Positions 8,144 to 35,827 are shown, counted from the stretch's first letter. The stretch: 37,699 nt of DNA from a virus (IMGVR_UViG_3300034375_010637:1-37699), one strand, 5' to 3'. Notes: a model not told the origin generated them from the sequence alone. Numbers and translations are program-made.

Positions 8144-8812
8144 TTACTTTAAACAAAAAGGGCTGGGGAGAGGATTGCACCAGCTCAGGTATTTCTCATC
8201 GGTGGAGGGATTCCAGCCACTTCTAAATTTTTTATGTATTCCTATCAAGTTTGAAAGAGTAAATTTGCCGTTAGTTAATTTTTCTAGTTTTCTTGCCCCA
8301 GGCCTATTGTTATTATTCCAAAGTTCAAATAACTCTTTTGCTTCTTTCCAAACCGCTCTATTGCCCTTTCCATTTCGATTTTCCCATGGAGCAGTGCCGA
8401 ACATTCCATTTCTACTTCCTTTAAGTCCCCTGCCGTGCATAGGGTTATTTTTTCCGCTTAATCTCTTTTTCATTAAATCTTTCCACGCTTGAGTTTGATT
8501 AGGATTATATTCTCCAGTTGCAAACCCTACAGCTTGGGGGTTTTGGTTATATAACCAGTCTTGCCCCCAGTACGTCTTAATTATTTTATCCTCTATGCTC
8601 CTGTCTTTACAGTCTGCTTCGTGTTCTGATATCTTTAGCCAAAAGAACCTATCTGGCCTCTTAGACAAAGCACTATAAAAGTGTCCTCTAGCTTTCTTCT
8701 TTGAGTAGTAGATATGCTGTTTTATTCTTTTCTCTAGTGGCTGAAAAGTGCTTCCAAAATAGCACTTCCCATTATCTCTATCATGGGCCATGTAAATTAT
8801 CAATTTAGCCAT
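8144..8812 (-). CDS. GIY-YIG homing endonuclease with NUMOD3-like motifs
   Basis: The N-terminal GIY-YIG nuclease domain shows IIY (residues 5-7), YFG (18-20), the catalytic Arg around R29 in LEKRIKQH, and the metal-binding Glu around E74 in SIEDKIIKTYWG. After it come NUMOD3-like repeats, SGKNNPMHG (119-127) and KGSRNGMFG (131-139), and a C-terminal helix-turn-helix-like segment (KLEKLTNGKFTLSNLIGIHK). This is the usual design of phage homing endonucleases, which cut a cognate allele and spread by repair. It sits between the capsid gene and the gp36-like gene. Its last codons (CLK and stop) contain the late motif of the downstream unit. Likely expressed from its own late motif at 8838-8845. 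Confidence 0.88.
   Translation of the reverse strand: MAKLIIYMAHDRDNGKCYFGSTFQPLEKRIKQHIYYSKKKARGHFYSALSKRPDRFFWLKISEHEADCKDRSIEDKIIKTYWGQDWLYNQNPQAVGFATGEYNPNQTQAWKDLMKKRLSGKNNPMHGRGLKGSRNGMFGTAPWENRNGKGNRAVWKEAKELFELWNNNNRPGARKLEKLTNGKFTLSNLIGIHKKFRSGWNPSTDEKYLSWCNPLPSPFCLK
8147..8154 (-). promoter_or_regulatory. Putative late promoter motif GTTTAAAG
   Basis: Minus-strand GTTTAAAG lies 24 bases upstream of the gp36-like start. It is embedded in the last codons of the homing endonuclease (TGT TTA AAG TAA). It is preceded by a T5 run and a weak hairpin (GCTGG/CCAGC) that could act as a terminator for the endonuclease transcript. Confidence 0.6.
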
Positions 8813-8837
8813 GTTAATTGAATGCTGTGTTTATAAT

Positions 8838-8845
8838 CTTTAAAC
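8838..8845 (-). promoter_or_regulatory. Putative late promoter motif GTTTAAAG
   Basis: Minus-strand GTTTAAAG lies 25 bases upstream of the endonuclease ATG and directly after the T-run of the capsid-gene terminator. This forms a compact terminator-then-promoter unit. Confidence 0.6.
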
Positions 8846-8873
8846 AAAAAAAGGGCTAGTCCGAAGACTAGCC
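8846..8873 (-). terminator. Rho-independent terminator after the major capsid gene
   Basis: On the minus strand an 8-bp perfect stem (GGCTAGTC / GACTAGCC) closes a TTCG loop and is followed by C and T7. The loop is closed by a C-G pair, giving the extra-stable cUUCGg tetraloop in RNA. It lies 26 bases after the capsid stop codon. Confidence 0.92.
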
Positions 8874-8898
8874 ACTTTGTTAGGTTGTAGATAATATA

Positions 8899-9882
8899 TC
8901 AAGCAACACAGTTAGTGAGGATAGCGCCAGCGCCAACCTTACCATTTTGTCCCATACCGACGAGCTCGAAGGAACGCTCAACAAGGATGTCGCCCGTAAA
9001 TACTCTCCTCTCAATATTAAAACGCTCAGGAGTGGCGATAGGATAACCAGCAAGGGTGTAGGTGTATCCAAAGGCAGGGTTACCGTAGTTAGCATCCATT
9101 GCAGGAGAAAAACCATCGGTTGCACCAGAAGGCTGGTAGAAGAGAACGGCTACGTTGTTGTAGATGTTCTCAAGAGCACCAGTAGACTGGTTAAGCTTGA
9201 GACGACGTGCAACACGAATCTCGTCAAGACCGAAAATGTTGGCAAGAGTTGCCTCATTGACGAGTACTCCACGCTGCATGAAGTCTCTGATTCTCTTGTT
9301 ACGCTTGAGAGCGTTGAAAGAGTCAGGGCTGATAACCATCTTGTTAGGATAGGTACCGATCTGAGCGCGAACAGCTTCCTTAGCTTCATCGATTAGAACT
9401 TCGATGTCAGAGGTGGCCTGGTTGAACTGGTCAGCACCACTAGCGCGAGTAGCAAGGTCGAAGACACAGGAAGTTTCATATACGGTGGAGTCTGTGACGG
9501 CACCAGCAACGGTTACTTCCCAGGACTGCATGAGACGATTTGCAGCGTCCTTAGCAGCATATTGACGAAGGTCAATCTGAGCGGATCCATTCTTGGCTTC
9601 AGCAGCTACTTCCTCAGCAATTTCCCAGCTGATCGCTTCCTGACGGAGAGCGAACGAGCGTGTTCCGAACTCATTCTGGATCTTTTGGATATTAGTTCCA
9701 GGAGCACGGAGGAAGGACTGAGCAGCAAATGCTTCCTTACCAAAAACGAGTGTGCGACCAGCGCGAGTATTCATAGATACCGCGGGACCAAAAAATGTAG
9801 CTACGCCTTCAGCATTCTTGTAACCTTGGGCGAGTTGCGTAAGAATAGGGTCAATTACGCGTACCTGATCTAGATTCATCAT
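8899..9882 (-). CDS. Major capsid protein (HK97-fold type)
   Basis: The protein is about 327 residues and forms the icosahedral shell. Features typical of HK97-fold capsid proteins are an N-terminal extended arm (GPAVSMNTRAGRTLVFGKEAF), a helix-rich P-domain (AAKDAANRLMQSWEVTVAGA; IDEAKEAVRAQIGTYPNKMVISPDSFNALKRN), the IFGLDEIRVARRLKL segment, and a closing strand (RRVFTGDILVERSFELVG). The position after protease/scaffold and decoration genes, and before a strong terminator, fits the main virion protein. The start at 9882 has a good Shine-Dalgarno (AAAGGAG) 10 bases upstream; a second ATG follows immediately at 9879. No N-terminal propeptide is obvious. Bases look more GC-rich than in the neighbouring orphan genes. 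Confidence 0.88.
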   Translation of the reverse strand: MMNLDQVRVIDPILTQLAQGYKNAEGVATFFGPAVSMNTRAGRTLVFGKEAFAAQSFLRAPGTNIQKIQNEFGTRSFALRQEAISWEIAEEVAAEAKNGSAQIDLRQYAAKDAANRLMQSWEVTVAGAVTDSTVYETSCVFDLATRASGADQFNQATSDIEVLIDEAKEAVRAQIGTYPNKMVISPDSFNALKRNKRIRDFMQRGVLVNEATLANIFGLDEIRVARRLKLNQSTGALENIYNNVAVLFYQPSGATDGFSPAMDANYGNPAFGYTYTLAGYPIATPERFNIERRVFTGDILVERSFELVGMGQNGKVGAGAILTNCVA

Positions 9883-9904
9883 GATTAATATTCTCCTTTA
9901 GTTA

Positions 9905-10405
9905 TCAAGAAGCGCCTTCAGAACCAAGCTTGACTCTGATATACTGACCAGCGGTTGTGCTAGTAGAAGTATCAAGAGCGCGGCCAAGGATGAAGTTAGT
10001 ACCAGCACCACCAGAAGCAATGGCCTCACCGGAATCGGAAGCATATACAGGATCGTCAACAGTGAACGCAGTAGAGGTTGCGTCAACTTCAACGATTGCA
10101 ATGCCTTCAGTTACGATGGAGAGAAGACCCTGATAGAGGAATACTCCAGGCTTAGAAGGGGTAGTGGAAGGATTGAGTTGACCTTCATATACGACATTGG
10201 AGCCGTCGTCAACTTGATAGCCCTTGGCGGTGAGTTGTCCAGCACCAGGAGCATCATAAATAGAAACGCCAGCGGCGAAATCGCCGTCATTAGCGGGGTA
10301 TGCACCAGCACGAGTTACGAAACGGTGAGCAGCGATTGTATTGCTGGTCGACACGGTTTCGACATACTGGTGGTCAAAAGACATGTAACGTGGGTCAGTT
10401 GCCAT
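9905..10405 (-). CDS. Head decoration protein (DUF2190-like)
   Basis: The 166-residue product is a small, mostly beta, Gly/Ala-rich protein. Its C-terminal half (FTVDDPVYASDSGEAIASGG, then FILGRALDTSTSTTAGQYIRVKL) resembles the DUF2190 capsid decoration family, which binds the outer capsid surface and stabilises it. It lies directly between the protease/scaffold gene and the capsid gene, the usual place for a decoration protein. The start has AAGG about 9 bases upstream. It is co-transcribed with the sheath-to-capsid unit. Alternative: another small capsid-associated stabilising protein with no DUF2190 relationship. Confidence 0.7.
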   Translation of the reverse strand: MATDPRYMSFDHQYVETVSTSNTIAAHRFVTRAGAYPANDGDFAAGVSIYDAPGAGQLTAKGYQVDDGSNVVYEGQLNPSTTPSKPGVFLYQGLLSIVTEGIAIVEVDATSTAFTVDDPVYASDSGEAIASGGAGTNFILGRALDTSTSTTAGQYIRVKLGSEGAS

Positions 10406-10416
10406 TAGTATTTACC

Positions 10417-11712
10417 TTAGTTGTTGTTAATAACAAACTTAACAGCTGTTAAGTAATCGCATTCATTCTCTTCGGCGTAAGATAACGCATCAGCATGAAT
10501 GTTTGCGGTGTTTGGATCGTAAACGTATCCAGAAGCATTAGGCTCAACCGACTTCGATTGCTTAGGAGCAGAAGCTGGTGTTGCAAATTCTTCAAATGAA
10601 ACCATGGAAGGTAGCGACTCAAGTACTCCGCGCATGAAGTCAAACTGAGAGGCCTTTCCGGTTTCTGAGAAATTCACAGAGTTCTTATAATTAAGAGTCT
10701 CCATGAAGCGAACAAGGTCACCTTTAGGTACAACTTGTTCTGTGAGCTTTCCAGACTCATAAAGTCCTTCAGCAAACGAAGAAATCTCTTTCTCGCGAGC
10801 AAGCTTTCTTTGCTTATTAAGCTCTTCCTCGAGTTCGGCTACACGAGCGTTGAGGGTGTCAATGCTCTGATCTCCAATGGCTGCTTCGCCATGATCTAGA
10901 GATTCGGTAGCCAGAGGTGCAGCTTCTTCAGTGTGGTCAGCAGTCTTTTTCTTCTCTTCTTTAACCTCTTTGGCCATATCAAATTTCTCTTCTTCTTCTT
11001 CCTCTTCCTTTTCTTTTTCTTCTTCAGCGTTATCAACTACTTCTTCAGAGTGATCCGCTTCCTCTTCCTTCTTCTCTTCCTCTTCTTTTTCTTCCATTTT
11101 ATCTTCGGCATTATCAACTACTTCTTCAGCGTGATCTGCCTCTTCCTTTTTCTCTTCCTCCTCTTCCTCTTTCTTTTCCCCTTCCGCTTCAGCGTAGGAC
11201 ATGTTGTTCTCCATCATGGAGGTAGCTTGTTTTTTGAGAGCCAATGCTTGGAAGAGCTCGTCTTCCTCGTATTCGGCGGCTAGAGAGGCAATTTTCTTGT
11301 CGTTATCTTCCATTTCACCAGAGATATCTTCTTCGCCCTCCTCACCAGCAGGCTCTTCGCCTCCTTCTTCTTCAACAGGTGCTTCTTCTTCGCTAGAAGC
11401 TTCAGGGGCTTCTTCGCCACCTTCTTCCTCTAGACCCATATCATCGCTCTCTTCCTCTAGACCCATATCATCGCTCTCTTCCTCACCAGAGGCCTCAGGG
11501 GCCATCTCTTCTTTCTCTTCCTCGTCGTCTGCGTACTCCATCTGGTAGTCAGCAGGAGCTCCGGTTTCACTAACCTGGTTACCGGAGTCGTCATAAACTG
11601 TAGGCTTTCCGCCACCAATGTTGATATTGACGGTCATCGAACCCTCGGCATGATCAACATTCTGATCTACCGAGACCTCTTTGACTTTGTCAGAAATTTT
11701 CTTCTTAGTCAT
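10417..11712 (-). CDS. Proposed nested scaffold protein, in-frame within the protease gene
   Basis: An in-frame ATG at 11712 (MTKKKISDKVKEV) lies 26 bases downstream of an internal GTTTAAAG motif in the sense orientation (11739-11746). That spacing equals the one seen before known structural gene starts in this window. The product would be about 431 residues, containing only the acidic scaffold region, coiled coil and C-terminal segment, without the protease. By analogy with Mu gpZ, this is the form expected to be needed in excess. No Shine-Dalgarno is visible at 11712, as at several other late starts here. Another internal start at 11637 (after GAGGG) is possible. This is inference; the full-length fusion alone is the conservative reading. 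Confidence 0.35.
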   Translation of the reverse strand: MTKKKISDKVKEVSVDQNVDHAEGSMTVNINIGGGKPTVYDDSGNQVSETGAPADYQMEYADDEEEKEEMAPEASGEEESDDMGLEEESDDMGLEEEGGEEAPEASSEEEAPVEEEGGEEPAGEEGEEDISGEMEDNDKKIASLAAEYEEDELFQALALKKQATSMMENNMSYAEAEGEKKEEEEEEKKEEADHAEEVVDNAEDKMEEKEEEEKKEEEADHSEEVVDNAEEEKEKEEEEEEEKFDMAKEVKEEKKKTADHTEEAAPLATESLDHGEAAIGDQSIDTLNARVAELEEELNKQRKLAREKEISSFAEGLYESGKLTEQVVPKGDLVRFMETLNYKNSVNFSETGKASQFDFMRGVLESLPSMVSFEEFATPASAPKQSKSVEPNASGYVYDPNTANIHADALSYAEENECDYLTAVKFVINNN

Positions 11713-12264
11713 AGTAGAGTTGTTTGTTTCTAGGGCTTCTTTAAACGAAATAACGGTTTTGCCCGATTGAGGCACTAAATCAATGATTTTTTCGTCGTTA
11801 GCTTCACCTTCAGAAAAAGCAGATAAGCCTTTTACAGCAGGAATAGATACTAATCCAAGGTGGCGGAGTGCCAATTTGCCGGGGTGGGGGTTAGTTTCCG
11901 CCTCGGGTAAGTAGAAGGAGCTACTTACTTTTTTAAACACTCCGTCCTTAATTAGTTGTTCTGCCTTAGGGGTAAGTTCGACTTTACCCCAAAGCTTTTT
12001 ACCCTTTCTCCAAAGATTTTTTACCCAGCCTAATGCGGGGGTAGAATCAGTTTGATCATGGCCGATAATCAGAGGAGCTTCATGCTGCTCTGGAGAATAA
12101 GTTCCGACAACTTGATCTAAATCCTCCTCAGTAAACATCATCTTCTGCCCAGTGGAGCTGATCTGAGGACCAGCCTTGAACATCTCGATGTGCACAACCT
12201 TCTTAGGTTGTTGAGAAGATAGAGGTTCGTTTGAATTTAAAACTAATTCTTTATTATCGGTCAT
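10417..12264 (-). CDS. Mu gpI-like prohead protease fused to acidic scaffold
   Basis: Residues 1-150 match the Mu gpI protease family: APLIIGHDQTDSTPALGWVK with the candidate catalytic H69, then VFKKVSSSFYLPEAE with the candidate Ser at 114-116, and KLALRHLGLVSIPAVKG. The family processes scaffold and capsid proteins during head maturation. After a linker, residues about 250-460 are an extremely acidic Glu/Lys-rich low-complexity region. Within it are two copies of EEADHxEEVVDNAE and a duplicated EESDDMGLE. A coiled coil (VAELEEELNKQRKLAREKEI) and a conserved C-terminal segment follow. This scaffold part probably guides capsid assembly. In Mu the protease gene contains a separately expressed scaffold (gpZ); a similar nested product is proposed here at 11712. 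Confidence 0.85.
   Translation of the reverse strand: MTDNKELVLNSNEPLSSQQPKKVVHIEMFKAGPQISSTGQKMMFTEEDLDQVVGTYSPEQHEAPLIIGHDQTDSTPALGWVKNLWRKGKKLWGKVELTPKAEQLIKDGVFKKVSSSFYLPEAETNPHPGKLALRHLGLVSIPAVKGLSAFSEGEANDEKIIDLVPQSGKTVISFKEALETNNSTMTKKKISDKVKEVSVDQNVDHAEGSMTVNINIGGGKPTVYDDSGNQVSETGAPADYQMEYADDEEEKEEMAPEASGEEESDDMGLEEESDDMGLEEEGGEEAPEASSEEEAPVEEEGGEEPAGEEGEEDISGEMEDNDKKIASLAAEYEEDELFQALALKKQATSMMENNMSYAEAEGEKKEEEEEEKKEEADHAEEVVDNAEDKMEEKEEEEKKEEEADHSEEVVDNAEEEKEKEEEEEEEKFDMAKEVKEEKKKTADHTEEAAPLATESLDHGEAAIGDQSIDTLNARVAELEEELNKQRKLAREKEISSFAEGLYESGKLTEQVVPKGDLVRFMETLNYKNSVNFSETGKASQFDFMRGVLESLPSMVSFEEFATPASAPKQSKSVEPNASGYVYDPNTANIHADALSYAEENECDYLTAVKFVINNN
11425..11478. repeat. 27-bp tandem duplication in the scaffold region
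   Basis: Two identical 27-base units, 11425-11451 and 11452-11478, encode the 9-residue acidic repeat EESDDMGLE in frame. Recent slippage or unequal recombination in low-complexity DNA is the likely cause. Confidence 0.85.
11739..11746 (-). promoter_or_regulatory. Internal GTTTAAAG motif inside the protease/scaffold gene
   Basis: A sense-oriented exact copy of the late motif falls within codons for SFKEAL, 26 bases before the in-frame ATG at 11712. It could drive a separate scaffold mRNA, but one or two such 8-mers are expected by chance. Confidence 0.4.
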
Positions 12265-12269
12265 CAGGA

Positions 12270-15200
12270 TCAGATGGTTGTGTTATTGAGTAGATAATCA
12301 AATCTATCAACGTTTCTAGAGAAGGTATCCTGTACCTGAGCAACCTGACCAGCAGGTGTTCTAACTACAGTAACAACTAGACGCTCAAGAGTTGGCGATG
12401 TGGCCACATAAGCATCGAGTCTTAAAGTTCCATTTTCTAGGTCGGTTAAAGCGTTGTTTGCATCAGAGCAAACTACGAGATAAGCCTGTTCTGGTCTTGC
12501 ACCGAATAGAGCACCTTGACGATAGAGTTGACCCATCACCTGAGAGGCAATAGACTTGGCTCTGGAGTAAAGTGTTCCTGCAGAGTCGATCTGCTCGAAG
12601 AGGATATCGTCGAAGCTTCTCGATAAGACGTCAATAAGAACATTAAGGATTGCTCTGGTATTAACGAACTTAAAGAGCTGGTTGGAGCTCATTGTTCTTG
12701 CACCCCAAGCTACGATTCCTCTGTTAGGTAGGCTTCTAATTGGATTGAGGCCTAGAGGATAAGTAACTTCTTGCTGTTGAGCAGTGATATCGAAGCGAAG
12801 GTCGGTTGCGCCTCTTAGGGGATATCTTGCACCAGCAGGAGCTTGTTGGAATCCTTCGTTGTTGTATCTAGAACATGCAATACCGGCAATGTAAGAACTT
12901 GGAGGTACGAAACGACCGGCAAGGTTCTTGATGTAAGGAGCATAGTATGCGGCGTGACCGAAAGGTACACCAGCTGTTCTCTTGATATAGGCTAGTTCAT
13001 CTTGAACTTCGCTAAGGCTCTCTTCATCGGCTCCGCAGTCAATTAGAGCAATGTGCTGAGTACCAGAGATACCTTCGGTCTCTCCAAGCTTACCTTCAGC
13101 GGCTCTTAGAAGCGATTGAGTTACCTTAACTCTTTCTTCTCTAGCGCCACTCTTTGTCAATCCACCAACTTGAGATTTAAAGCTTCCGTATGCTTCAGGA
13201 GCAAAAAGGAAACCAGGCTGGTATAGACCAGATCCCATACCTTGCTCAATAGCATAAACGAAGTCCTGTGCTCTCGACTTAGCACTAAGCTTATAGTTAG
13301 CAAAGTCTGGGGCCTCTTCCAATGAGCCAATTCTCGCGATGTTAGTGTCCTTAATACCATAGCGGTTAAGTCCAGCAACAACAGGAGAAGGAATTCCGTT
13401 CTTGGAGGTGATCTTAAGTCTTAGGATGTAATCATGACGATAGAAACCATTAGCAGCAGAGCTGTCTAGGCTTACGGTTGTCGAAGATACAGTGAATGTA
13501 GGAGCGCTAGTAACAACAAATTGGTCGTCACGAGTAACAGCAGAAGCAACTTCAAAGCGATATCCGTTGATAACAACAGGATCCCCTTCATTGAGTTCTT
13601 CAGTGAACTTAGTAGCAACAGTGCGTAACTTGTAAGTTGCGCCAGTAAACGTTGTTGCTGCTGGGTTCTTAACAAGCATTGTAGTAGCATTATATACTTC
13701 TACTACTTCATAAGTTGCGCTATTAACTAAAATTCTAGTTCCAGGAGCCGCGATGGCTTGGAAATTAGTTCCGCTACCAGTAAGAACACCGACTGCCGTA
13801 AGGTCAGTAATATTACCGGCCACTTCATCAGAAACTGTACCCTGAATTGTTGTAGCACCAGAGGTAACTTCAACCGTTCCTGTAAGCTGTCTTCCGTCGT
13901 TGGAAGGTCTTAGAGCAGGGGTACCGGCTGTTGCTGGAGAAGTGCTGATAGCTAGTCCGTTGTTAGGGGCAAAGTTATTAGCTCCTAAGCCAGAATAGTC
14001 AACGGCAATAGATTCAACCTTATAGAACTCGTTGATATTCTTTTCTTCAAGAATCTCGTTAATAGAATCTCTTACGCTATTAGTAAGTTCAGAAGGATTA
14101 GCTCCGTTGGCAATAATGGCTCTGTTCTCGCCAGCAATATTTAGATAGAATACCTGAACTGTATCAGGAAGATATCCAGATCTTGTGATGTTGCTTCCTA
14201 CGCTAGTAGCAGATCCGTTAGGAACAGTTGCGCTAACAGCAAAAGCGGTACCAGAAGCATCCCACTGATAGTACTGAGATCCGATGTCAGGAAGGGCATT
14301 GTGGCCAAGCTTACCAACTCTTTCGTCAGTAGAAACGGCTACATACACATCATCAGGGATTACAGAAGCGCTAGCATAGACTTTTTGGTCAACAAGGAAA
14401 TCCTCAAGAGCCTGAGCAACTACACCTTGTACATCAGAATCTGTAACAGGGGCCGAATCAGCAACAGAACCACCAACAATATCCTTAGTTACGTTATAGA
14501 CAAGTCTACGTACTCTTACAACTATAGTTGCATTAGAGCCAGTAAAGTCAAGAATTGCCGCGGTATTTTGAGCGGGATCTTGAAGCTTAATTCTGTTATT
14601 AGCAGCATCAACTGTGTGAACTTTATAGACTGTGTTATAAGCAACATTACCAACACCGGCAATGTCTCCAGTTCCTACATAGTTACCAGCTCCAGGGTCA
14701 ATACCCTCAAATACAATTAAGTCACCTGCAGCAACGGCGTCAGTTCCAACGTCAAGAGCATCAATATCAACAAGGTTTACCCAACCTTCATTAGTACCGG
14801 CGCCTTGGTTATGCTGGAAAGAAGCTGTTCCGTTAGTATTAGTAGAAACAGAAGCGGCTTCGATAAAGTTACCTAATGCTCCACCAGATACATACTTAAT
14901 AGGTTCGTTAGTAGCTACGTCTCTAGAAGTACAGCGAAGAGCCAACTCTTTGATGGGAACATAAAAGTTAATGGTACCAGCATCAGTTGGTGTTGCATAA
15001 GCAGTATCAGAGATCTGATAAGCTTTAAAAGTGTCGATTTCAGGAAGAGATCTTACGTCTTTAGAATAAATTCTAAATGTTGCTTCTTTAGCCTCTTCTT
15101 CATCTTGCTCGATTCTGAAATAAGTTCCAAAATCGGGGTCGTTGTTCTTTAAATATCCAACAATATCAAAAGCGTTATCATTAGCATCAAGAGCAGTTGT

Positions 15201-15683
15201 AGTAATAACTCTGATTTCTACACCATCAGAATCGTTGATTCCGAGGGAAGTATCGCCAAAATATCTTCCGCCAATTTTCAAGGAGAAGAGATTCCAGCCT
15301 GCGCCTTTGGTTACAACAACCTTAGTCTCAGGAGTTGGAGTTACGCGGGTATAGTATAGAATACCATTTACACCGACGTTTTCAAAAAATGCACCTACTG
15401 AATCATAAGAAATCATCGAGTTAGGATTATTAGCGGCGGTTGGAATGCCACCAATCTTATCGGTGAAGTCTGCTAGGGAGCCAATTTGTGTTGGCTTATA
15501 CGGTTGAAGTGCAGAGTACTCATCAATGGGGGTATCATCATACGGATCTGTAGGTGTAGATCCGAAGATATAGCCAATAGCATGAGATGCTAAAGGCTGG
15601 GGTAATCCACCAGTTGAAGACTGAGTAACAAACACTCCAGGGCGCTTAATAGCACCTACGTTGATGTTTACAGGATTAGCCAT
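12270..15683 (-). CDS. Tail sheath protein, unusually long (1137 aa)
   Basis: This is the contractile sheath subunit. The N terminus is typical: GAIKRPGVFVTQSSTGGLPQ, SHAIGYIFGSTP, VGAFFENVGVNGILYYTRVT. The C-terminal polymerising domain is also typical: GIVAWGARTMSSNQLFKFVN, TRAILNVLIDVLSRSFDDIL, QVMGQLYRQGALFG, VVCSDANNALTDLENGTLRL and LERLVVTVVRTPAG. Between them sits a long, mostly beta, Thr/Val/Ala/Gly-rich region of about 600 residues. It must include inserted, probably surface-exposed, domains, because Mu, P2 and T4 sheaths have roughly 400-660 residues. The late motif at 15723-15730 heads this unit, and protease/scaffold follows after 5 bases. Identity is firm; the nature of the insert is open. 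Confidence 0.93.
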   Translation of the reverse strand: MANPVNINVGAIKRPGVFVTQSSTGGLPQPLASHAIGYIFGSTPTDPYDDTPIDEYSALQPYKPTQIGSLADFTDKIGGIPTAANNPNSMISYDSVGAFFENVGVNGILYYTRVTPTPETKVVVTKGAGWNLFSLKIGGRYFGDTSLGINDSDGVEIRVITTTALDANDNAFDIVGYLKNNDPDFGTYFRIEQDEEEAKEATFRIYSKDVRSLPEIDTFKAYQISDTAYATPTDAGTINFYVPIKELALRCTSRDVATNEPIKYVSGGALGNFIEAASVSTNTNGTASFQHNQGAGTNEGWVNLVDIDALDVGTDAVAAGDLIVFEGIDPGAGNYVGTGDIAGVGNVAYNTVYKVHTVDAANNRIKLQDPAQNTAAILDFTGSNATIVVRVRRLVYNVTKDIVGGSVADSAPVTDSDVQGVVAQALEDFLVDQKVYASASVIPDDVYVAVSTDERVGKLGHNALPDIGSQYYQWDASGTAFAVSATVPNGSATSVGSNITRSGYLPDTVQVFYLNIAGENRAIIANGANPSELTNSVRDSINEILEEKNINEFYKVESIAVDYSGLGANNFAPNNGLAISTSPATAGTPALRPSNDGRQLTGTVEVTSGATTIQGTVSDEVAGNITDLTAVGVLTGSGTNFQAIAAPGTRILVNSATYEVVEVYNATTMLVKNPAATTFTGATYKLRTVATKFTEELNEGDPVVINGYRFEVASAVTRDDQFVVTSAPTFTVSSTTVSLDSSAANGFYRHDYILRLKITSKNGIPSPVVAGLNRYGIKDTNIARIGSLEEAPDFANYKLSAKSRAQDFVYAIEQGMGSGLYQPGFLFAPEAYGSFKSQVGGLTKSGAREERVKVTQSLLRAAEGKLGETEGISGTQHIALIDCGADEESLSEVQDELAYIKRTAGVPFGHAAYYAPYIKNLAGRFVPPSSYIAGIACSRYNNEGFQQAPAGARYPLRGATDLRFDITAQQQEVTYPLGLNPIRSLPNRGIVAWGARTMSSNQLFKFVNTRAILNVLIDVLSRSFDDILFEQIDSAGTLYSRAKSIASQVMGQLYRQGALFGARPEQAYLVVCSDANNALTDLENGTLRLDAYVATSPTLERLVVTVVRTPAGQVAQVQDTFSRNVDRFDYLLNNTTI

Positions 15684-15722
15684 AAATTAAATCTTTACAA
15701 AGTAAGAGGCCTTTCAGAAAGC

Positions 15723-15730
15723 CTTTAAAC
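15723..15730 (-). promoter_or_regulatory. Putative late promoter motif GTTTAAAG
   Basis: Minus-strand GTTTAAAG, preceded by GTGTTT, lies 39 bases upstream of the sheath ATG. This is the longest spacing of the set. The intervening leader holds an imperfect AAAGGCTTTCTGAAAGGCCT palindrome. Confidence 0.6.
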
Positions 15731-15749
15731 AAACACCCATTTATAAGCT

Positions 15750-16763: not shown

Positions 16764-16788
16764 GGATAATTGTGTTATACGTAACTTT

Positions 16789-16796
16789 CTTTAAAC
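16789..16796 (-). promoter_or_regulatory. Putative late promoter motif GTTTAAAG (leftward)
   Basis: Minus-strand GTTTAAAG lies 25 bases upstream of the chaperone-like gene start. It is back-to-back with the rightward copy at 16814-16821, separated by 17 bases. Confidence 0.6.
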
Positions 16797-16813
16797 CCTA
16801 ATTTGCTTTTTTT

Positions 16814-16821
16814 GTTTAAAG
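16814..16821 (+). promoter_or_regulatory. Putative late promoter motif GTTTAAAG (rightward)
   Basis: GTTTAAAG, preceded by T7, lies 22 bases upstream of the ATG at 16844. An AAAGGAAA Shine-Dalgarno-like stretch follows before the start. Confidence 0.6.
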
Positions 16822-23953: not shown

Positions 23954-23961
23954 CTTTAAAC
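23954..23961 (-). promoter_or_regulatory. Putative late promoter motif GTTTAAAG (leftward)
   Basis: Minus-strand GTTTAAAG lies 19 bases upstream of the 1290-residue orphan. It forms one arm of a perfect inverted repeat with the copy at 23967-23974, separated by five bases. Confidence 0.6.
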
Positions 23962-23966: not shown

Positions 23967-23974
23967 GTTTAAAG
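23967..23974 (+). promoter_or_regulatory. Putative late promoter motif GTTTAAAG (rightward)
   Basis: GTTTAAAG lies 21 bases upstream of the ATG at 23996, back-to-back with the leftward copy. The upstream reach of each promoter must overlap the other's motif. Confidence 0.6.
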
Positions 23975-25400: not shown

Positions 25401-25570
25401 CCACTGGACAAACTGTAACCGTAGAGGGAGCAGAAGAACTAATTGCAGAATGGGACGAAGGCAAGCTAACTAGAGAAGAGTTAGTAGAAAAACTTATGAA
25501 TCTAGAAACAGTGCTTACAGACGTAACCAAGGTAAATGAAGAAGGTCAGTTTAAAGAAACTAAAGAATAA
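25376..25570 (+). CDS. Small acidic protein (64 aa) upstream of portal
   Basis: The ATG lies 25 bases inside the preceding gene. The protein is acidic, with a short beta start (GINILTTGQTVTVEGAEELI) and two predicted helices (EWDEGKLTREELVEKLMNLE). The late motif for the portal gene is embedded near its 3' end, at codons for FKE. Small acidic proteins next to portals can be assembly factors, but nothing specific is seen. Family not recognised. Confidence 0.6.
   Translation: MEKGINILTTGQTVTVEGAEELIAEWDEGKLTREELVEKLMNLETVLTDVTKVNEEGQFKETKE
25549..25556 (+). promoter_or_regulatory. Putative late promoter motif GTTTAAAG for portal
   Basis: GTTTAAAG lies 30 bases upstream of the portal ATG and within the final codons of the 64-residue gene. 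It is followed by AT-rich AATAATGTG. No Shine-Dalgarno precedes the portal start. Confidence 0.6.
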
Positions 25571-27458: not shown

Positions 27459-27466
27459 TTTACCTA

Positions 27467-27474: not shown

Positions 27475-27508
27475 AGTTATTAGAAATATTGCATATATTC
27501 TAATTGCT

Positions 27509-27937: not shown

Positions 27938-27946
27938 TATATTATA

Positions 27947-27971
27947 GGAGGGTTGAGGTATGTCAACCTCC
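27947..27971 (+). promoter_or_regulatory. Candidate translational-operator hairpin over the start of the next gene
   Basis: GGAGG-G-TTGA (27947-27956) can pair with TCAACCTCC (27963-27971): 9 base pairs with one bulged G and a six-base loop. The Shine-Dalgarno GGAGG is in the stem and the ATG (27960-27962) is in the loop. Folded, it would block ribosome binding. Confidence 0.5.
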
Positions 27972-29102
27972 AATTTATTTTTTAAAGGCTGTTTTTCTGA
28001 ACTAACGAACGAACAAAAAGCCTCCTTAGAAAATATACTTGAGGAAGATAAGTCTTGCTCGCGCAAAGTGAATCTTAAAGATAAGTCTTGCTCGCGCGAA
28101 GTGAATACTTGCGGTATGACTGTTGAAGAGCTATTCGACAAGTATGCGTTGTACGATCCGCAGAGGGGATTGTATCGCTCTTGGGGCAATATAATTTTTC
28201 CTTGGGACATTGATGCATCTGTTAGATCTAATTTAAATTATTCGCTCACAGACGATAAGTGGAAAGTAGCTAAATACGCTGCTTTATACGCTTATTTTGA
28301 AGGAGATAGAGTTCTTTATATTGAAGACGATGGGTATAAAGTTTGCCTATATGAGGCTAACCAAGATATCATAGCAATTGCTGGCCCGCTTGATAGAACT
28401 AAGTGGGATATGATTTGTTGTATTGAGTTATCAGAGCCATTTGGCTTACCTACTCTAGAAGAGCTAGAGGAAAGGTGCAACTACTATAATTTAGAATTTT
28501 TCTGGAAAAAATGGAAGAACTATTCCGGTAAGTGGGAAGATAACTTTTTTGAACAAACAATTAATACCTGTAATACTACTGGAGTTTCAACCGCAGAGTT
28601 TATTGAAAGGCTAAAAGAAAGAGAGTCGGAGTATGAATGTGCTAGTGATAAGAACTCTGATAGATGGCTAGAAGCAAGAGTTAGAAAAGGAAACTTCTAT
28701 GAAAGAGGGGATTGCGTTTTAGTCAAAGGTGTATGTAAAGACACAATTTGTGTATTTTTAGCACATACAGATATGCCTGCTACTGATGCAATTTACGAAA
28801 AGCATAAAAACTTTTTAAACAGTCCTTGGGAAAATTACTTCCTAAGACTTTATTGCTTGCAAACCGGAAGAAACAAATGCCTAGAGTATCAAAGAAAAAA
28901 TAACCTTTCTAATTATGAGGTGGTAGAGATTGGATCCCAGGGACATTTTGTAGAAAAACCAATTCCTTACAGCTTGGATCCGCCAGTACCTACTTTAGAC
29001 AAACAAACTGAACAAAAATTAAATCCAACTGTTCTTACCCCACGCGAAATTTTAGATCTAGATACAGAGAATTATCCGTATACAACGGAATGCGATACAT
29101 AA
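27960..29102 (+). CDS. Cys-rich virion-associated protein (380 aa), function unknown
   Basis: The product has many cysteines for a phage protein, and an N-terminal 11-residue tandem repeat (DKSCSRKVNLK / DKSCSREVNTC). Two segments (YAYFEGDRVLYIEDDGYKVC; GNFYERGDCVLVKGVCKD) share a 'Y-GD-V' pattern reminiscent of small carbohydrate-binding modules that are common in phage tail proteins. The C terminus is Pro/Thr-rich. It sits between the probable tube gene and the large fibre/baseplate gene, so a tail role is likely. The start is firm: ATG 27960 with GGAGG 8 bases upstream, although both are in a hairpin. Not matched to a named family. Confidence 0.65.
   Translation: MSTSNLFFKGCFSELTNEQKASLENILEEDKSCSRKVNLKDKSCSREVNTCGMTVEELFDKYALYDPQRGLYRSWGNIIFPWDIDASVRSNLNYSLTDDKWKVAKYAALYAYFEGDRVLYIEDDGYKVCLYEANQDIIAIAGPLDRTKWDMICCIELSEPFGLPTLEELEERCNYYNLEFFWKKWKNYSGKWEDNFFEQTINTCNTTGVSTAEFIERLKERESEYECASDKNSDRWLEARVRKGNFYERGDCVLVKGVCKDTICVFLAHTDMPATDAIYEKHKNFLNSPWENYFLRLYCLQTGRNKCLEYQRKNNLSNYEVVEIGSQGHFVEKPIPYSLDPPVPTLDKQTEQKLNPTVLTPREILDLDTENYPYTTECDT
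28047..28112. repeat. 33-bp tandem duplication
   Basis: Two adjacent 33-base units (28047-28079 and 28080-28112) are nearly identical over the first 27 bases and duplicate 11 residues in frame. Each unit contains a GCTCGCGC core. Confidence 0.85.
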
Positions 29103-29107: not shown

Positions 29108-29115
29108 GTTTAAAG
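29108..29115 (+). promoter_or_regulatory. Putative late promoter motif GTTTAAAG
   Basis: GTTTAAAG lies 24 bases upstream of the GTG start at 29140 and is followed by AT-rich ATAATAGAG. It is in the short gap after the Cys-rich gene. Confidence 0.6.
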
Positions 29116-29139: not shown

Positions 29140-32100
29140 GTGGCTAATCTTTACGGTAAAAATTGCAACCCTGATATATTAAATCCTGAACAGGAAAGAA
29201 AAGTATATGTTGATACAGTTACAACTCTAAAAAGAGATCATATTTTTATTGGAAATGAATCGGCGGAAGCAATTCAAGCACTTCTTGATCCTCTTTTCTT
29301 TGAGTTAATACCGAGATCGTGTAATTCTCCAAAGCTTTCTTTAAAAAAGATTGATCATGGGGAACTTAATGGGCTCAATAATGATGACCATGAGCAATAT
29401 GTTCATATCTCTATCGATAGGGAGATTTCAGCTAATCACACTTTCACAGGTAATTTAATTTTTGGCGGCCAATCTTATTTCACGGCCGGAATTAGAGACG
29501 TTGAGGGCTATTTAGGAGATAATCTTGAGGTTTTATCATCCGGCGGCGGAGGTAGGCCAATTTGGAAAAGTCCTAATGATCTTAGGATAGATCATAATTT
29601 TTTAATTAATCTAGATTCTGATGATCATTTGCAATATGTTCATGTATCCGAAAATAGGGAGATTAGTGCCGATCATCTCTTTACTGGTGATATAGATGTA
29701 TCAGGTAGTATAGAAGTTTCAGGGATTCTTAAGGATTCTGGGGGAAACTCTCCAACAAAAGGCCAAATACCTATTGCTGATGATACCGGTAGGTTCCAAT
29801 GGAGAACGCCTGTAATTGAAAATGTATATTGGGTTGCGAAAGATGGCGACGATGCAAATGATGGCTTAACTCCTCAGTCTGCCAAGGCATCTATTAAATC
29901 CGCCGTAAGGGCATCTTACTCTGGGGATTTAGGTAAAGTTTTAGACGCGGCAGAATCGATCTTTGCAAACAAAGCTTTAATAAAAGACGAAACAATTAAT
30001 GAGTTATATACAAGAAATTTCGCTCTTCCTAACTTAACAATTTACGATCAAAAAGCGCGCGAAGTATATAAAATTTTATTATCAAACAGAGTTAGTGTGA
30101 TTGCCGAAGCAATCGGCGAAGTATCCGCGTTGTTTCCTGGAAGCGTTAGTGATATCAACGGAAAATGTACAAGAGACTCTAAGCTTCTTATACTCTCAAT
30201 TGCAAGAGATTTGTTCTATGGAGGATTTTCAAATAGTTACGAATTTACCTCGGCTTATTTTAATGTAAACGGAGACTTTATCTCTTCTATTTTTTCTCCA
30301 GCACCAGAAAAGTCACTAACAGTACAGATTTTTAATGCAATAAAAGACAAACTAAAAGCACTAATTCCAGGCCCAGAGTTTTCTCATTTTAGAACAAGGA
30401 TAGATAGACTGTTTGGATACGTAGGCGACTCTATCCAAAATGAGTCGCTTTCGTTCTTTCCAACAGTAAAAGAACAAGAAGATTTAAAAGAGGCCATATA
30501 TTACAATCTCCGTAACTTAGTAGATGATGTATGGGCCAATATGCTCTCAATTTATGATGAAGAAATATTGTCACCTACAGAAGAAAAGTGCAAGAGAGAC
30601 ATTGAACTTATTGCAATTGCAATTGCAGAAGATATAGGAAACTGGGGAACCTCAAGAATATCTGAAGCTACTCAGTTTTATATCGACGGAACAACTATAT
30701 TCGATCCAGATATAGAAAGAATTGCTTCGATTTTTGCTTATGATAATCTCAGAAGCCGCATTAGAAACTTAACTTCTAATAATCCTATAAAAGCTAAAGT
30801 AGATAGTCTCTTCTCTATTCTTACAAATGCACTAAATAATCTTGCAACTGCGTCTATTGGCGATGTAGATGAAGGCACGCAAATAAATAAATCTGCAAAA
30901 CTTTGTAATAGAGACCTGGGATATTTTATTGACGCCGTCGCTTCTGATATGAAAAACGGAGGCAATGTATTCTCTATAGAATTTGCAGAAAAGTATTACG
31001 AAGGAAACACTCTGATTCACATCTCTGGACAACTAGAAGATACCATTTGGGCGTTTAATCGTGCCAGAGAGCTGATGATACTTGCAATGAAGAACTGGAG
31101 GGTAAACCCTGCAGGAGACTTGTATCAAACAGAATACACCATTAAGAAGATATTTATAGACAACTCTATTGTTTTTGATGAGTGGCCGGCATGTGCTAAT
31201 GCAGAAACTGCAATTAATAACTACTATCAGATAATTGAGTTTATTTTAGAAAACGGCCCTAATGCAACTGCAAAAAATGCTCAGAGGCTGATTTATGAAA
31301 GTATTGGAAAAGGTGACGACCCCACTTCGATTATTAACTCTGTATGGAATGATACAATCGCAGAGTATCCGTTAGTAGAATTTACTGAAGGAAAATGCAA
31401 GAGAGATCTTAATCTTGTAATAGAGGCAATTGCAAAAGACATATATAGCGAGGGTAACTCTAACACCATAGCCGCAACAAGGTCATATTTTCCAACATCG
31501 GGTAATCCCATTGAAACGCAAATCGAAGAGTCAATATTTGCCTATAACACAGCAAGAGATTATATAAATAATAATCTTTTAATCGGAATTGAATATGCCT
31601 CTGTTAGAGCACAAGTGACAACTCTTATTAACATTCTAACAACGGCACTTGATAATAATTCTCTTGAGTTTCTTCCAGAAGAAGATATAGGTAATTGGAC
31701 TCTTCAACAACCCTCCTTTAAAACAACAATCTTTGTAAACTCTGGCGTTTATAACGAGGAAAATCCAATCGACCTACCTCCTAATACAGTGGTAACAGGA
31801 AATAGCCTCAGAGGTATTACTGTAAATGCAGTTAATAGAACTCTTGATTTATTCCATGTAAATAACGCATGCGGATTGTCATTTATGACTTTCTCTAATC
31901 ACCTTGCGCCAAGCTACGCTGTTTCTTTTGCAAAGAAGAATGGTCAGGGGACAGCGGGAATTATTTCACGAAGCCCGTACGTTCAGCAATGCACCTCTAT
32001 CACAACAACCGGCGGCGGAATGCTTGTGGATGGCGCAATCACTGAAGGAGTTAAGTCAATGGTTCTCGACTCCTACACACAATATAATCAAGGTGGCCCA

Positions 32101-33027
32101 GGTGTTAAGATCATAAATAATGGATACGCTCAGCTAGTTTCTTTATTTACAATTTCTTGCTCTACGGGCATTGAATGCGCAACTGGAGGACAATGCGATC
32201 TTACTAATTCCAACTCTTCGTTTGGTGACTATGGCCTCGTTGCTGATGGCCTTGGAGAAAAGGAAATAGTTGCAAAGGTTTTAGACAATGTAGAAACCGG
32301 ATCTTTAACTTTCCGTGTTGAAATACCTGAAACACTAAGACCGTATAATGGCCAAGCAGGGTACTTTGGCGCTCCTTTCTTTACAATTCAGGATATTAAG
32401 ATTATTGACCCAGGATCTGGTTATGAAGCTCCTCCTAATATTACAATTTCTCTTCCTGAAGGACCCAATCCGATCCCAGCTAGAGCAAGAGTAGCTATTG
32501 AAAACGGATCGTTGTCTGAAGTTACTCTTGTAAAGAGCGGAACTTCTTATGTATCTACACCGAGTATACAAGTCAGTTATCCAACGTTACCTGGCGGCAC
32601 GTTACCAACACTAGAGGTAGTTATGGCTCCTCTACTGTACACCGTGGTTTCCTCCTCAGAAGTAGAGTCGGATAACTCAACGACTGTTACGTTAGTTACA
32701 CCTACTTTGTATCCCATAGCAAAAGGATCTTCTTTTGTTCTCTCTAGACAGTCTAAAGTTCTTGCATCTGGGCACTCTTTTGAGTACATCGGAGCAGGTC
32801 CTAATATCCAAGCTGCTCTTCCGATCAACAACGGAACATTTATCCAGCAGCAAGAAATAGAAGAAAGAAATGGTGGATCCGTAATATTTACATCTACCGA
32901 TCAATCTGGAAACTTTAGAATCGGGGACGGAGTTATTATTGATCAAACCTCCGGCACCATTGGAGGTATCTCCTTCTCAAGAGGATTATTTGCTCAAATT
33001 ACCCCACTCATCCTTGCTCTTCAATAA
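29140..33027 (+). CDS. Large fibre/baseplate structural protein (1295 aa)
   Basis: The start is GTG. The N-terminal 200 residues hold two copies of a fibre module, ending NNDDHEQYVHISIDREISAN and DSDDHLQYVHVSENREISAD, both followed by HxFTGxI. Residues about 230-850 contain at least four helical repeats with the signature C-x-RD then I/V-A-x-A-x-D near the start and Y-x-x-A-R/L-x-x-I later (for example GKCTRDSKLLILSIARDL; EEKCKRDIELIAIAIAEDI; AKLCNRDLGYFIDAVASDM; GKCKRDLNLVIEAIAKDI). A beta-helix-like part follows (IFVNSGVYNEENPIDLPPNT to about residue 1050), then 'GSGY' beta repeats and a C-terminal domain (SGNFRIGDGVIIDQTSGTIG). Similar arrangements occur in large structural proteins of T4-like cyanophages. 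The virion location is inferred. Confidence 0.85.
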   Translation: MANLYGKNCNPDILNPEQERKVYVDTVTTLKRDHIFIGNESAEAIQALLDPLFFELIPRSCNSPKLSLKKIDHGELNGLNNDDHEQYVHISIDREISANHTFTGNLIFGGQSYFTAGIRDVEGYLGDNLEVLSSGGGGRPIWKSPNDLRIDHNFLINLDSDDHLQYVHVSENREISADHLFTGDIDVSGSIEVSGILKDSGGNSPTKGQIPIADDTGRFQWRTPVIENVYWVAKDGDDANDGLTPQSAKASIKSAVRASYSGDLGKVLDAAESIFANKALIKDETINELYTRNFALPNLTIYDQKAREVYKILLSNRVSVIAEAIGEVSALFPGSVSDINGKCTRDSKLLILSIARDLFYGGFSNSYEFTSAYFNVNGDFISSIFSPAPEKSLTVQIFNAIKDKLKALIPGPEFSHFRTRIDRLFGYVGDSIQNESLSFFPTVKEQEDLKEAIYYNLRNLVDDVWANMLSIYDEEILSPTEEKCKRDIELIAIAIAEDIGNWGTSRISEATQFYIDGTTIFDPDIERIASIFAYDNLRSRIRNLTSNNPIKAKVDSLFSILTNALNNLATASIGDVDEGTQINKSAKLCNRDLGYFIDAVASDMKNGGNVFSIEFAEKYYEGNTLIHISGQLEDTIWAFNRARELMILAMKNWRVNPAGDLYQTEYTIKKIFIDNSIVFDEWPACANAETAINNYYQIIEFILENGPNATAKNAQRLIYESIGKGDDPTSIINSVWNDTIAEYPLVEFTEGKCKRDLNLVIEAIAKDIYSEGNSNTIAATRSYFPTSGNPIETQIEESIFAYNTARDYINNNLLIGIEYASVRAQVTTLINILTTALDNNSLEFLPEEDIGNWTLQQPSFKTTIFVNSGVYNEENPIDLPPNTVVTGNSLRGITVNAVNRTLDLFHVNNACGLSFMTFSNHLAPSYAVSFAKKNGQGTAGIISRSPYVQQCTSITTTGGGMLVDGAITEGVKSMVLDSYTQYNQGGPGVKIINNGYAQLVSLFTISCSTGIECATGGQCDLTNSNSSFGDYGLVADGLGEKEIVAKVLDNVETGSLTFRVEIPETLRPYNGQAGYFGAPFFTIQDIKIIDPGSGYEAPPNITISLPEGPNPIPARARVAIENGSLSEVTLVKSGTSYVSTPSIQVSYPTLPGGTLPTLEVVMAPLLYTVVSSSEVESDNSTTVTLVTPTLYPIAKGSSFVLSRQSKVLASGHSFEYIGAGPNIQAALPINNGTFIQQQEIEERNGGSVIFTSTDQSGNFRIGDGVIIDQTSGTIGGISFSRGLFAQITPLILALQ

Positions 33028-33384: not shown

Positions 33385-33385
33385 T

Positions 33386-35668
33386 ATGGCTACCCAAAAT
33401 AGATCTTTTTCTAATAGAGTACGTACATCGAGTCAAGAGCAACTTGACAATCAACGTAATGAATATTTAAATTTATCTAATGCAGAACCAAATTTAGGTT
33501 CTCCAGAAGATATTAGCGATCCTTTAAACCAACCTAACCCCACCCTAGACCATTTTTTAGTATCAAGAGAAGACGGGGTGAGGGTATGGACTCAAAGGCC
33601 AGCCGGAATAAAAATTGACGGTAATATATCAGATATTATTAATAGATACAACACGGCACCTAATGCGGTTCCTGGCATTGGCGATTTAGAGCTAGGTGAA
33701 TTAGAAATTAATACTTCCGATGGTAAGATCTTTATCAAGATAATCGCCGATGGCATAGAAAGTATTAAAGAAATTCAGTCTGGAGTTCAAGGTCCTCAAG
33801 GACCCCAAGGTACTAAGGGTATTCAAGGCGAAAGACAAACTGCAATCCCGGTCTCTATAGTCGGTGCGGTTGATGATGTAAACGGTACGTATAATGAGGG
33901 CGCTGGTGGCCCAAATGATCCACAAGGCTTGCTTAATTTTGAATTTCAGACTCCGAGCCTAGGAGACGGGGTGTTTGATATTGCCACGTCTGATCTCTGG
34001 GTCTGGGTAGGTAGCGAGTGGTTGAATGTTGGATTGCTTAGAGGCCCAGATGGTCCGCAGGGCGTCCAAGGCCCTCAGGGTCCAAAAGGCCCGATTGGTA
34101 TTCAAGGTTTCGATGGTCCGCGAGGCATCATAGGCCCGAGAGGAGAGCAAGGTATTCAAGGCTTCAGAGGCAATCAAGGTATCCAGGGCTTGATTGGTAG
34201 GTCTCTTAGGATCTTAGGAAGTGTGCAATCTACTTCTGAAATTCCTGGCTTCCCTAACACGGCTGCGGCAGGTGTGGAAGAGGGCGATGCCTATACTGTA
34301 AGAGATGACCGTAATATTTATATATGGAATGGCTTAGAGTGGTTTAATGGAGGCCAGATTCTTATCCAAGGCACCCAAGGCACCCAAGGCTTCTTCGGTC
34401 CGCAAGGTTCTCAGGGCATCCAAGGATACCCGTTAGATATCATCCAAACTTATAGCAATTTACCTTTTCCAATTAGCGATCCAAACTTCTTAGCCACAGA
34501 GTTCCCAGACGCTAATCCTTTTTCGGGTGTTGTGGATACAACAACTGGGCAAGGAGTTCTTTGGCAAAAGAAGGAAAATGGAATCTGGAGCCAAATTGGC
34601 ATAATCAGCGTACAAGGCCCGCAAGGTCCGCAGGGACTACAAGGACCGCAAGGAAACCAGGGTATTCAAGGTGTGCAAGGACCCCAGGGACCTCAAGGTA
34701 TTGCGTTTAGAATCCAGGACACATACGACGATCCAACAGGCTCCGCTCCATTAACTAGTCTTCTATTAAGATCGGAGTATTCAGACGCAGAATACCTCGA
34801 TGCGGTTATCGACGTATCTACCGGCGACGGTGTGCTTTGGGTCAATACATTAGACGCTGCATTAAATCCTGTTTGGGAACAGATAGGTAAAATTAGTAAG
34901 AAGGGCGATGACTTCCGTCTCTATATCGACGCCAGCCCCCCGTCTTTCCCTCCTGCAAAGATAGGCGATGCCTGGCTAGATACAACGACCGGAATTAAAT
35001 ATACGCTCATAGACGAAGATGGCGACGACAACGCCCAATGGGTAGAGCTTCCGGCCGCCGTTCAAGGCCCTCAAGGCACCCAGGGCATCCAAGGGTTCAG
35101 GGGATATTCTCTACAAGTTATAGGGAACTATAACGATCCGTCAGTTGCGTTAAATAGTACGTATCTTGAGACGAATTATCTGACGGCCGATCCCTACAGC
35201 GGAGTCGTAGATATTTCTTCTGGGCAGGGGGTGTTGTGGCAAAAGAATCCCAGCGGTTCGTGGATTGAGAGAGGCGTAATAAGTGTCCAAGGCATTCAAG
35301 GGCCTCATGGGCCTCAGGGGCAAACTTCTGAGTCGACAATAGGCAATAGCACGCTGATTCAAATAAACGCCCAGACCACCGATCTCTATTCTCATATAGC
35401 AGATTTTACAATAGCCACGGCGGACATAAAAATAAATAATTTAACATCGGGTTATGAGATGAAGTTGTATTTGAAGAATACGAGCGCATCTCAGGCAATA
35501 ACACTAACAATTAGCGCGTCAGCAACCGACACAGGGCACAGCGCTATTGACCTCGCAGGAGGAGGGGTAAATGATGGTGAGGTGGAGCTTATCTCAGGAG
35601 GGACGGGTGTGGCGGTCGTTTGGGTGGCCAATGTTGCAGGGAATATCGTAGGAGGAGTGGTAGCATGA
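33386..35668 (+). CDS. Collagen-like tail fibre protein (760 aa)
   Basis: Six stretches of Gly-X-Y triplets rich in GPQ and GIQ (for example GPQGPQGTKGIQG) form trimeric collagen-like stalks. Between them are 70-90 residue globular modules of one family. These begin with a short hydrophobic strand (SLRILGSVQS; PLDIIQTYSN; AFRIQDTYDD; YSLQVIGNYN) and end with a repeated 'SGVVDxxxGQGVLWQK...W...G.ISVQG' pattern. The C-terminal 100 residues form a beta domain (TSGYEMKLYLKNTSASQAIT). The N terminus (residues 1-135) probably attaches to the tail. The layout is a segmented fibre with multiple bead-like domains. The stop overlaps the next start (ATGA), and GGAGGAG precedes that start. Confidence 0.88.
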   Translation: MATQNRSFSNRVRTSSQEQLDNQRNEYLNLSNAEPNLGSPEDISDPLNQPNPTLDHFLVSREDGVRVWTQRPAGIKIDGNISDIINRYNTAPNAVPGIGDLELGELEINTSDGKIFIKIIADGIESIKEIQSGVQGPQGPQGTKGIQGERQTAIPVSIVGAVDDVNGTYNEGAGGPNDPQGLLNFEFQTPSLGDGVFDIATSDLWVWVGSEWLNVGLLRGPDGPQGVQGPQGPKGPIGIQGFDGPRGIIGPRGEQGIQGFRGNQGIQGLIGRSLRILGSVQSTSEIPGFPNTAAAGVEEGDAYTVRDDRNIYIWNGLEWFNGGQILIQGTQGTQGFFGPQGSQGIQGYPLDIIQTYSNLPFPISDPNFLATEFPDANPFSGVVDTTTGQGVLWQKKENGIWSQIGIISVQGPQGPQGLQGPQGNQGIQGVQGPQGPQGIAFRIQDTYDDPTGSAPLTSLLLRSEYSDAEYLDAVIDVSTGDGVLWVNTLDAALNPVWEQIGKISKKGDDFRLYIDASPPSFPPAKIGDAWLDTTTGIKYTLIDEDGDDNAQWVELPAAVQGPQGTQGIQGFRGYSLQVIGNYNDPSVALNSTYLETNYLTADPYSGVVDISSGQGVLWQKNPSGSWIERGVISVQGIQGPHGPQGQTSESTIGNSTLIQINAQTTDLYSHIADFTIATADIKINNLTSGYEMKLYLKNTSASQAITLTISASATDTGHSAIDLAGGGVNDGEVELISGGTGVAVVWVANVAGNIVGGVVA

Positions 35669-35802
35669 GCACTAGGGGTTTTTATATTACTCTGAGCATC
35701 AATGGTGGCACCAACGCCTCTAAATCTACCTGGAGCAGTGCTGCTAACACTGCTTACACTAACCTAATAGCCAAAGGCTGGACAATCTCCTACAACGCAT
35801 AA
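35665..35802 (+). CDS. Tiny fibre-associated protein (45 aa)
   Basis: The ATG overlaps the fibre stop (ATGA) and has a strong Shine-Dalgarno (GGAGGAG, 35651-35657). The 45-residue product (TRGFYITLSINGGTNASKST, then AYTNLIAKGWTISYNA) ends in a 'NLIxKGWTI' motif typical of the end of BspA-type leucine-rich-repeat domains in surface proteins. It could be a small capping or accessory protein of the fibre. A short ATG-start gene with such a good ribosome site is unlikely to be noise. Function unknown. Confidence 0.65.
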   Translation: MSTRGFYITLSINGGTNASKSTWSSAANTAYTNLIAKGWTISYNA

Positions 35803-35819
35803 TCCTATCATCGAACTGA

Positions 35820-35827
35820 GTTTAAAG
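35820..35827 (+). promoter_or_regulatory. Putative late promoter motif GTTTAAAG
   Basis: GTTTAAAG followed by AATAATAAATT lies 29 bases upstream of the ATG at 35857, at the start of the last fibre unit in the window. Confidence 0.6.

Follow-up and report, generated by a model that had tools for sequence, protein, structure and literature searches.

A recurrent upstream octamer, GTTTAAAG, proposed as the late-promoter core of S-TIM5-like cyanophages, and its one-base difference between two clades

Introduction

What directs transcription of the virion genes in a viral DNA record in which a single octamer, GTTTAAAG, recurs upstream of gene after gene? The record, IMGVR_UViG_3300034375_010637 (37.7 kb, about 60% AT), was analysed at its full length and is referred to here as the window. 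An earlier sequence-only reading had proposed the octamer as a new phage late promoter, occupying the place of a -10-like element and perhaps read by a sigma-like factor encoded elsewhere. The phages concerned infect marine Synechococcus, and in the open-access literature we found neither a promoter map for S-TIM5-type phages nor work on S-TIM5 promoters or sigma factors, nor a prior description of GTTTAAAG among the best 20 of 662 papers containing the word (none of these 20 concerns phage by its title), although an earlier mention is possible.

Results

Identity of the window

Bases 1-20000 of the window share 90.8% identity over 97% of their length with S-TIM5 (NC_019516.2), with S-TIM61 and S-TIM66 matching this stretch as well as S-TIM5 does, while S-TIM54 shows 81% identity over 67%; bases 20001-28755 are 89% identical to S-TIM5, and beyond 28755, where the genes are mostly fibre-like, a near match was not found. 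S-TIM5 is a cyanophage of the genus Aurunvirus with Synechococcus WH8102 as its host. PHROG matches in the window include tail sheath, major head protein, head maturation protease, head-tail adaptor, portal and fibre/baseplate proteins. These sequence matches identify the window as part of the genome of a phage near cyanophage S-TIM5 (Aurunvirus).

Copies of the octamer in the window

Thirteen exact copies of GTTTAAAG are present in the window, where shuffling gives an expectation of 2.85; no shuffle reached 13 and the maximum was 8. Ten of the 13 lie 19-39 b before start codons, measured from motif end to start (24, 25, 39, 25, 22, 19, 21, 30, 24 and 29 b in the order below), for which the binomial chance of ten falling in a 21-b band is about 2e-18, the band being post hoc and the gene starts chosen by the analyst. 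All ten are exact, on the strands and at the coordinates given by the sequence-only reading:

8147..8154, minus strand: GTTTAAAG core before the head-tail adaptor gene 7325-8122; site also present at S-TIM5 41616 and in S-TIM54
8838..8845, minus strand: GTTTAAAG core before the homing-endonuclease ORF 8144-8812, an ORF absent from S-TIM5 and S-TIM54
15723..15730, minus strand: GTTTAAAG core before the tail sheath gene 12270-15683
16789..16796, minus strand: GTTTAAAG core before ORF 16419-16763, forming a divergent pair with 16814; counterpart at S-TIM5 49544
16814..16821, plus strand: GTTTAAAG core before ORF 16844-17242 (S-TIM5 orthologue annotated virion structural), with TAG at offset 14; counterpart at S-TIM5 49562
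23954..23961, minus strand: GTTTAAAG core before ORF 20062-23934 (S-TIM5 orthologue annotated virion structural), forming a divergent pair with 23967; counterpart at S-TIM5 57048
23967..23974, plus strand: GTTTAAAG core before the ORF starting at 23996; counterpart at S-TIM5 57054
25549..25556, plus strand: GTTTAAAG core before the portal gene 25587-27458, within the end of the preceding ORF
29108..29115, plus strand: GTTTAAAG core before the fibre/baseplate gene 29140-33027, which matches tail fibre PHROGs
35820..35827, plus strand: GTTTAAAG core before ORF 35857-36051 and the tail gene 36051-37658, which matches tail PHROGs

The three remaining copies fall within ORFs; those at 11739 and 19568 had been placed correctly, and the one given as 33532 is actually at 33522-33529. 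The density of GTTTAAAG in the window is 25 times lower inside genes than outside. As had been noted, the early region 1-6065 holds no copy. The sigma70 promoters ascribed to that region are thinly represented in the window, with a single TATAAT 100 b or less from a start (at 3093), and become clear in the whole S-TIM5 genome. T4-type late promoters were likewise absent from gene fronts, as claimed, the six occurrences of TATAAATA in the window all falling outside the 100 b that precede a start.

The homing-endonuclease ORF (window 8144-8845, minus strand) is flanked by two stretches consisting of a hairpin and a T-run, each leading directly into GTTTAAAG (8838 and 8147), so that the insert seems to bring along a terminator and a promoter copy of its own; it also seems to leave the downstream gene its promoter. 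Within the S-TIM5 clade the sheath leader, from motif to start codon (15684-15722, minus strand), shows strong conservation (CTGAAAGGCCTCTTACTTTGTAAAG); the mid clade has a different sheath leader that is also conserved.

Genome-wide enrichment and gene class

All upstream 8-mers were ranked without bias in the annotated genomes of S-TIM5 and S-TIM54. The octamer ranked first in both (25 genes, 27-fold in S-TIM5; 27 genes, 29-fold in S-TIM54) and in large related contigs, as would be expected from the earlier proposal. It was 32 times denser outside than inside ORFs in S-TIM5 and 41 times in S-TIM54, and the equal frequency inside genes that would have spoken against a promoter was not seen, the density inside genes being 19-41 times lower across the six genomes tested besides the window. 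Distances from the first G to the start codon cluster at 26-57 b in S-TIM5. Syn9, a T4-like cyanophage of similar size, has just three copies. Enriched variants in the GTTTAAAG-bearing clade (T clade, see below) include GTTTAAGG, GATTAAAG and GTCTAAAG.

When copies 12-120 b upstream of genes were counted by gene class, GTTTAARG stood before annotated structural or packaging genes in 19 of 30 cases in S-TIM5 and 18 of 31 in S-TIM54, whereas the sigma70-like extended -10 word TGNTATAAT did so in one of 20 and one of 19, respectively (Fisher p=3e-5 for S-TIM5 and 2e-4 for S-TIM54). A minority of GTTTAAAG copies stand before non-structural or unknown genes. The octamer thus marks a class of upstream motif that goes with virion genes and is conserved at orthologous sites.

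In S-TIM5, TGNTATAAT (e.g. L003:21502, minus strand) precedes about 20 genes, nearly all of them non-structural, including tRNA, nrdA, thyX, topoisomerase and the thioredoxin-sigma operon, upstream of which TGGTATAAT is found; the TGNTATAAT genes are probably of the early or middle class. The variant GATTAAAG is enriched 25-fold upstream of mostly non-structural genes (S-TIM5 25201, 26678, 29363, 133205 and 170433, places that are kept in S-TIM54) and is either a weak variant or a separate class. A copy of GTTTAAAG also lies 209 b upstream of psbA at S-TIM5 8047 and S-TIM54 7859, and its presence in both genomes suggests that psbA, too, may be served by a late promoter and a long leader.

Relatives and a one-base clade difference

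Scans of IMG/VR with the sigma, sheath and portal proteins gave 186 loci, some on shared contigs, and another 54 came from a second search that used a sigma alignment. Among near and mid relatives the leading upstream 8-mers still included GTTTAAAG, while the leading upstream 8-mer of a sister clade was GTTGAAAG, which ranked first or equal first on two large contigs (in 19 of the 114 upstream regions of one and 25 of the 131 of the other). Most loci were of either the GTTTAAAG type or the GTTGAAAG type, hereafter the T and G types after the fourth base. Drift in GC content was rejected as the cause of this difference, contigs of GC 0.53-0.57 keeping GTTTAAAG (first on two large contigs of GC 0.53-0.56) and those of 0.45-0.47 having GTTGAAAG.

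The alternation affects orthologous promoter sites shared by both clades. Upstream of the portal gene, GTT[T/G]AAAG was present in 76 of 76 loci, with a fourth base that was never A or C; in the window and many relatives this site overlaps the end of the preceding ORF, and the word is exactly kept. Upstream of the sheath gene, 31 loci had GTTTAAAG and 15 had GTTGAAAG, most of the others having GTTTAAGG in the same place. The two clades therefore differ by one base in a coordinated manner at orthologous sites.

Anatomy of the upstream element

In the G clade, 102 sites followed the pattern GTTGAAAGC-N4-(A/G)TAG-(A/G), with TAG at offset 13, and in a stricter set TAG was exactly at offset 13 in 89 of 144 sites (background 2.2). 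The element is weaker and looser in the T clade, where TAG was at offsets 13, 14 and 15 in 13, 20 and 9 of 152 sites (background 2.5 per offset). Upstream of the G-clade motif the profile was flat, showing no -35-like signal on the assumption of a -10 placement. The median distance from the first G to the start codon was 34-35 b, and near sites showed no Shine-Dalgarno enrichment, a comparison that favoured neither a -10 nor a -35 placement of the motif. If TAG marks the start site, the motif would span about -14 to -7, roughly the -10 position, with leaders of about 12-40 b. A -10 element formed by the AT-rich words 13-15 b past the T-clade motif was considered and set aside as weakly supported.

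A candidate reader

The reader that the sequence-only reading had supposed to lie elsewhere in the genome has a candidate in the genomes of close relatives. S-TIM5 F417_gp108 (256 aa) carries the annotation RNA polymerase sigma factor; the corresponding S-TIM54 protein is annotated SigF. A sigma gene was found in seven of seven searched records of at least 79 kb, covering both clades, and adjoins the terminase gene in S-TIM5, S-TIM54 and two G-clade contigs. The protein matched phrog_351 (4.6e-18), fell short of the SigF model (4.1e-11; 43 bits, cut-off 261) and the SigBFG model (27 bits, cut-off 234), and was just below the cut-off for Sigma70_r2; a profile of 36 homologues matched SigA chains in solved structures as far as region 3. 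An AlphaFold2 model (mean pLDDT 72) has helices for sigma2, sigma3 and a C-terminal four-helix part, and aligns structurally with sigma70-family chains over residues 1-228, its pTM of 0.34 making the domain placement unreliable. Regions 2 and 3 are thus assigned by profile, and region 4 from the model alone. By sequence comparison gp108 appears to be a diverged sigma-70-family factor. The T4 factor gp55 lacks sigma3 and sigma4-like parts, both of which the gp108 model keeps, so the phage sigma is probably not gp55-like.

Other routes to late transcription were searched for and rejected. Neither a T7-like RNA polymerase (PF00940 absent in nine records, detected in T7) nor a multisubunit phage RNA polymerase was found. 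The T4 gp45 route was dismissed because a clamp of the gp45 family (PF09116) was not found in S-TIM5, S-TIM54 or the searched contigs, although it was detected in Syn9; a very diverged clamp is possible. Next to the sigma gene, S-TIM5 gp109 had no family match, and in both clades the sigma gene is followed by a gene that by eye resembles an HNH endonuclease (L200:2141-2827, L201:788-1510, L031:10651-11349).

In the sigma tree, T-type and G-type loci are split on one 100/100 branch, consistent with a single change; the link between sigma and motif is thus one clade split and counts as a single correlated event. Other proteins likewise differ between the T and G clades. Twenty sigma positions distinguish the two types; they include C73S, Q75T and H77Q, which lie in the region 2.4 helix beside the residue that aligns with sigma70 Q437. 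These changes suggest residues that read the changed base, which, with one event and many residues, falls short of proof.

Discussion

Proposed model and its alternatives

We consider it likely that GTTTAAAG is the -10-type late-promoter core of S-TIM5-like cyanophages, read by a phage sigma on host RNA polymerase. Many early and middle genes, including the sigma operon, would be transcribed from host sigma70-like extended -10 promoters (TGNTATAAT), so that synthesis of the sigma would switch transcription to the virion genes at a late stage. The phage sigma (F417_gp108) would bind the host core RNA polymerase, and the sigma-bearing polymerase would go to GTTTAAAG sites in Aurunvirus and its relatives, starting transcription 6-7 b past the motif at the conserved TAG, whose first base is 13-14 b after the first G. 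With somewhat less assurance, we lean towards the view that a late-promoter class has been rewritten at one base (GTTTAAAG/GTTGAAAGC, the latter with a sharper TAG element) over dozens of sites between the two phage lineages, together with changes in the DNA-reading helix of their sigma (e.g. Q75T, H77Q).

Recurrence of an AT-rich octamer through chance or base composition, in a window that is itself AT-rich, has a probability close to nil and is already refuted: the shuffles stayed below 13 copies, the motif was first among upstream 8-mers, only three copies occur in Syn9, GTTTAAAG is retained at GC 0.53-0.57 and the portal site is exactly conserved in all loci. It is improbable, to a far lesser degree, that GTTTAAAG instead serves as the -35 element in promoters of SigB/SigF type, with region 4 of the phage sigma described above as its reader and a degenerate -10 some 13-17 b downstream, an arrangement that would still be a phage late promoter. 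Promoters of B. subtilis SigB have the form GTTTAA-N15(+/-2)-GGGTAT, so that GTTTAA is a -35 word (PMC9847131), the best NCBIfam match of the phage sigma is SigF (below cut-off), and there is a weak -10-like score at offsets 19-32 (z of about 2.4); the phage sigma also keeps its sigma4-like part, yet a -35 was not seen, and the TAG element of the T clade is weak, all of which weighs against the -10 reading. However, more than half of the sites have their first G 35 b or less from the start codon, leaving no room for an upstream start site unless the mRNAs are leaderless or the starts misplaced. Motif finding over offsets 17-36 gave only 0.24-0.26 per site (0.10-0.15 when shuffled) versus 1.16 for TAG at offset 13, and a GGGTAT-like word was not found in the profiles or by motif finding. 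The -10-like placement advanced by the sequence-only reading is therefore the better supported of the two, on the missing -35, the TAG element and the spacing.

Still less probable is a site for a MotA-like phage activator that recruits host sigma70 polymerase, or a signal in the RNA leader. The fairly tight distance to the start codon and the TATAAT-like words near some T-clade sites would suit such a role, but neither clade has a conserved -10 at a set distance, the portal site keeps its DNA word exactly while lying within the end of the preceding ORF, and a sigma gene is present whose tree tracks the motif type.

Read as a phage-sigma late promoter, GTTTAAAG would provide a sequence handle for sorting early from late genes, would allow start sites to be predicted within a few bases and points to a role for the annotated sigma gene. 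The T/G split at the same promoters offers natural variants for tests of sigma-promoter co-change and, if the rewriting is real, a natural record of a transcription factor and its entire site set changing together.

Comparison with known systems

Ma-LMM01, a Microcystis phage without gp55, is reported to rely on SigA-like promoters of its host for all its genes and to have no phage-specific motif (PMC5780444); the phages described here resemble it as cyanobacterial myophages without gp55 or gp33. T4 late promoters depend on gp55, gp33 and gp45, and the T4 relative Aeh1 has a changed late consensus (PMC2988020). They are similar to the promoters proposed here in having an 8-b -10-type element, no -35 conservation and a phage sigma as reader, and differ in the word itself, in the gp45-family clamp, which was not found here, and in gp55, since the sigma described here keeps sigma3 and sigma4-like parts in its model. 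Only three (S-TIM5) and one (S-TIM54) copies of the T4-type TATAAATA occur 12-120 b upstream of genes, too few for a T4 consensus system. B. subtilis SigB promoters share the word GTTTAA, and the phage sigma weakly matches SigB/SigF-type models; here, by contrast, a GGGTAT-like partner is missing, and only 13 b separate the second element from the first G. The phiEco32 and phage 7-11 sigma factor promoters (phiEco32 consensus TAATGTATA; PMC4331800) are alike in combining a phage-encoded sigma and a motif of about 9 b before structural genes with host promoters for early genes. They differ in sequence, host and phage lineage, the present system having GTTTAAAG/GTTGAAAGC, a TAG about 13 b from the motif start and dozens of copies.
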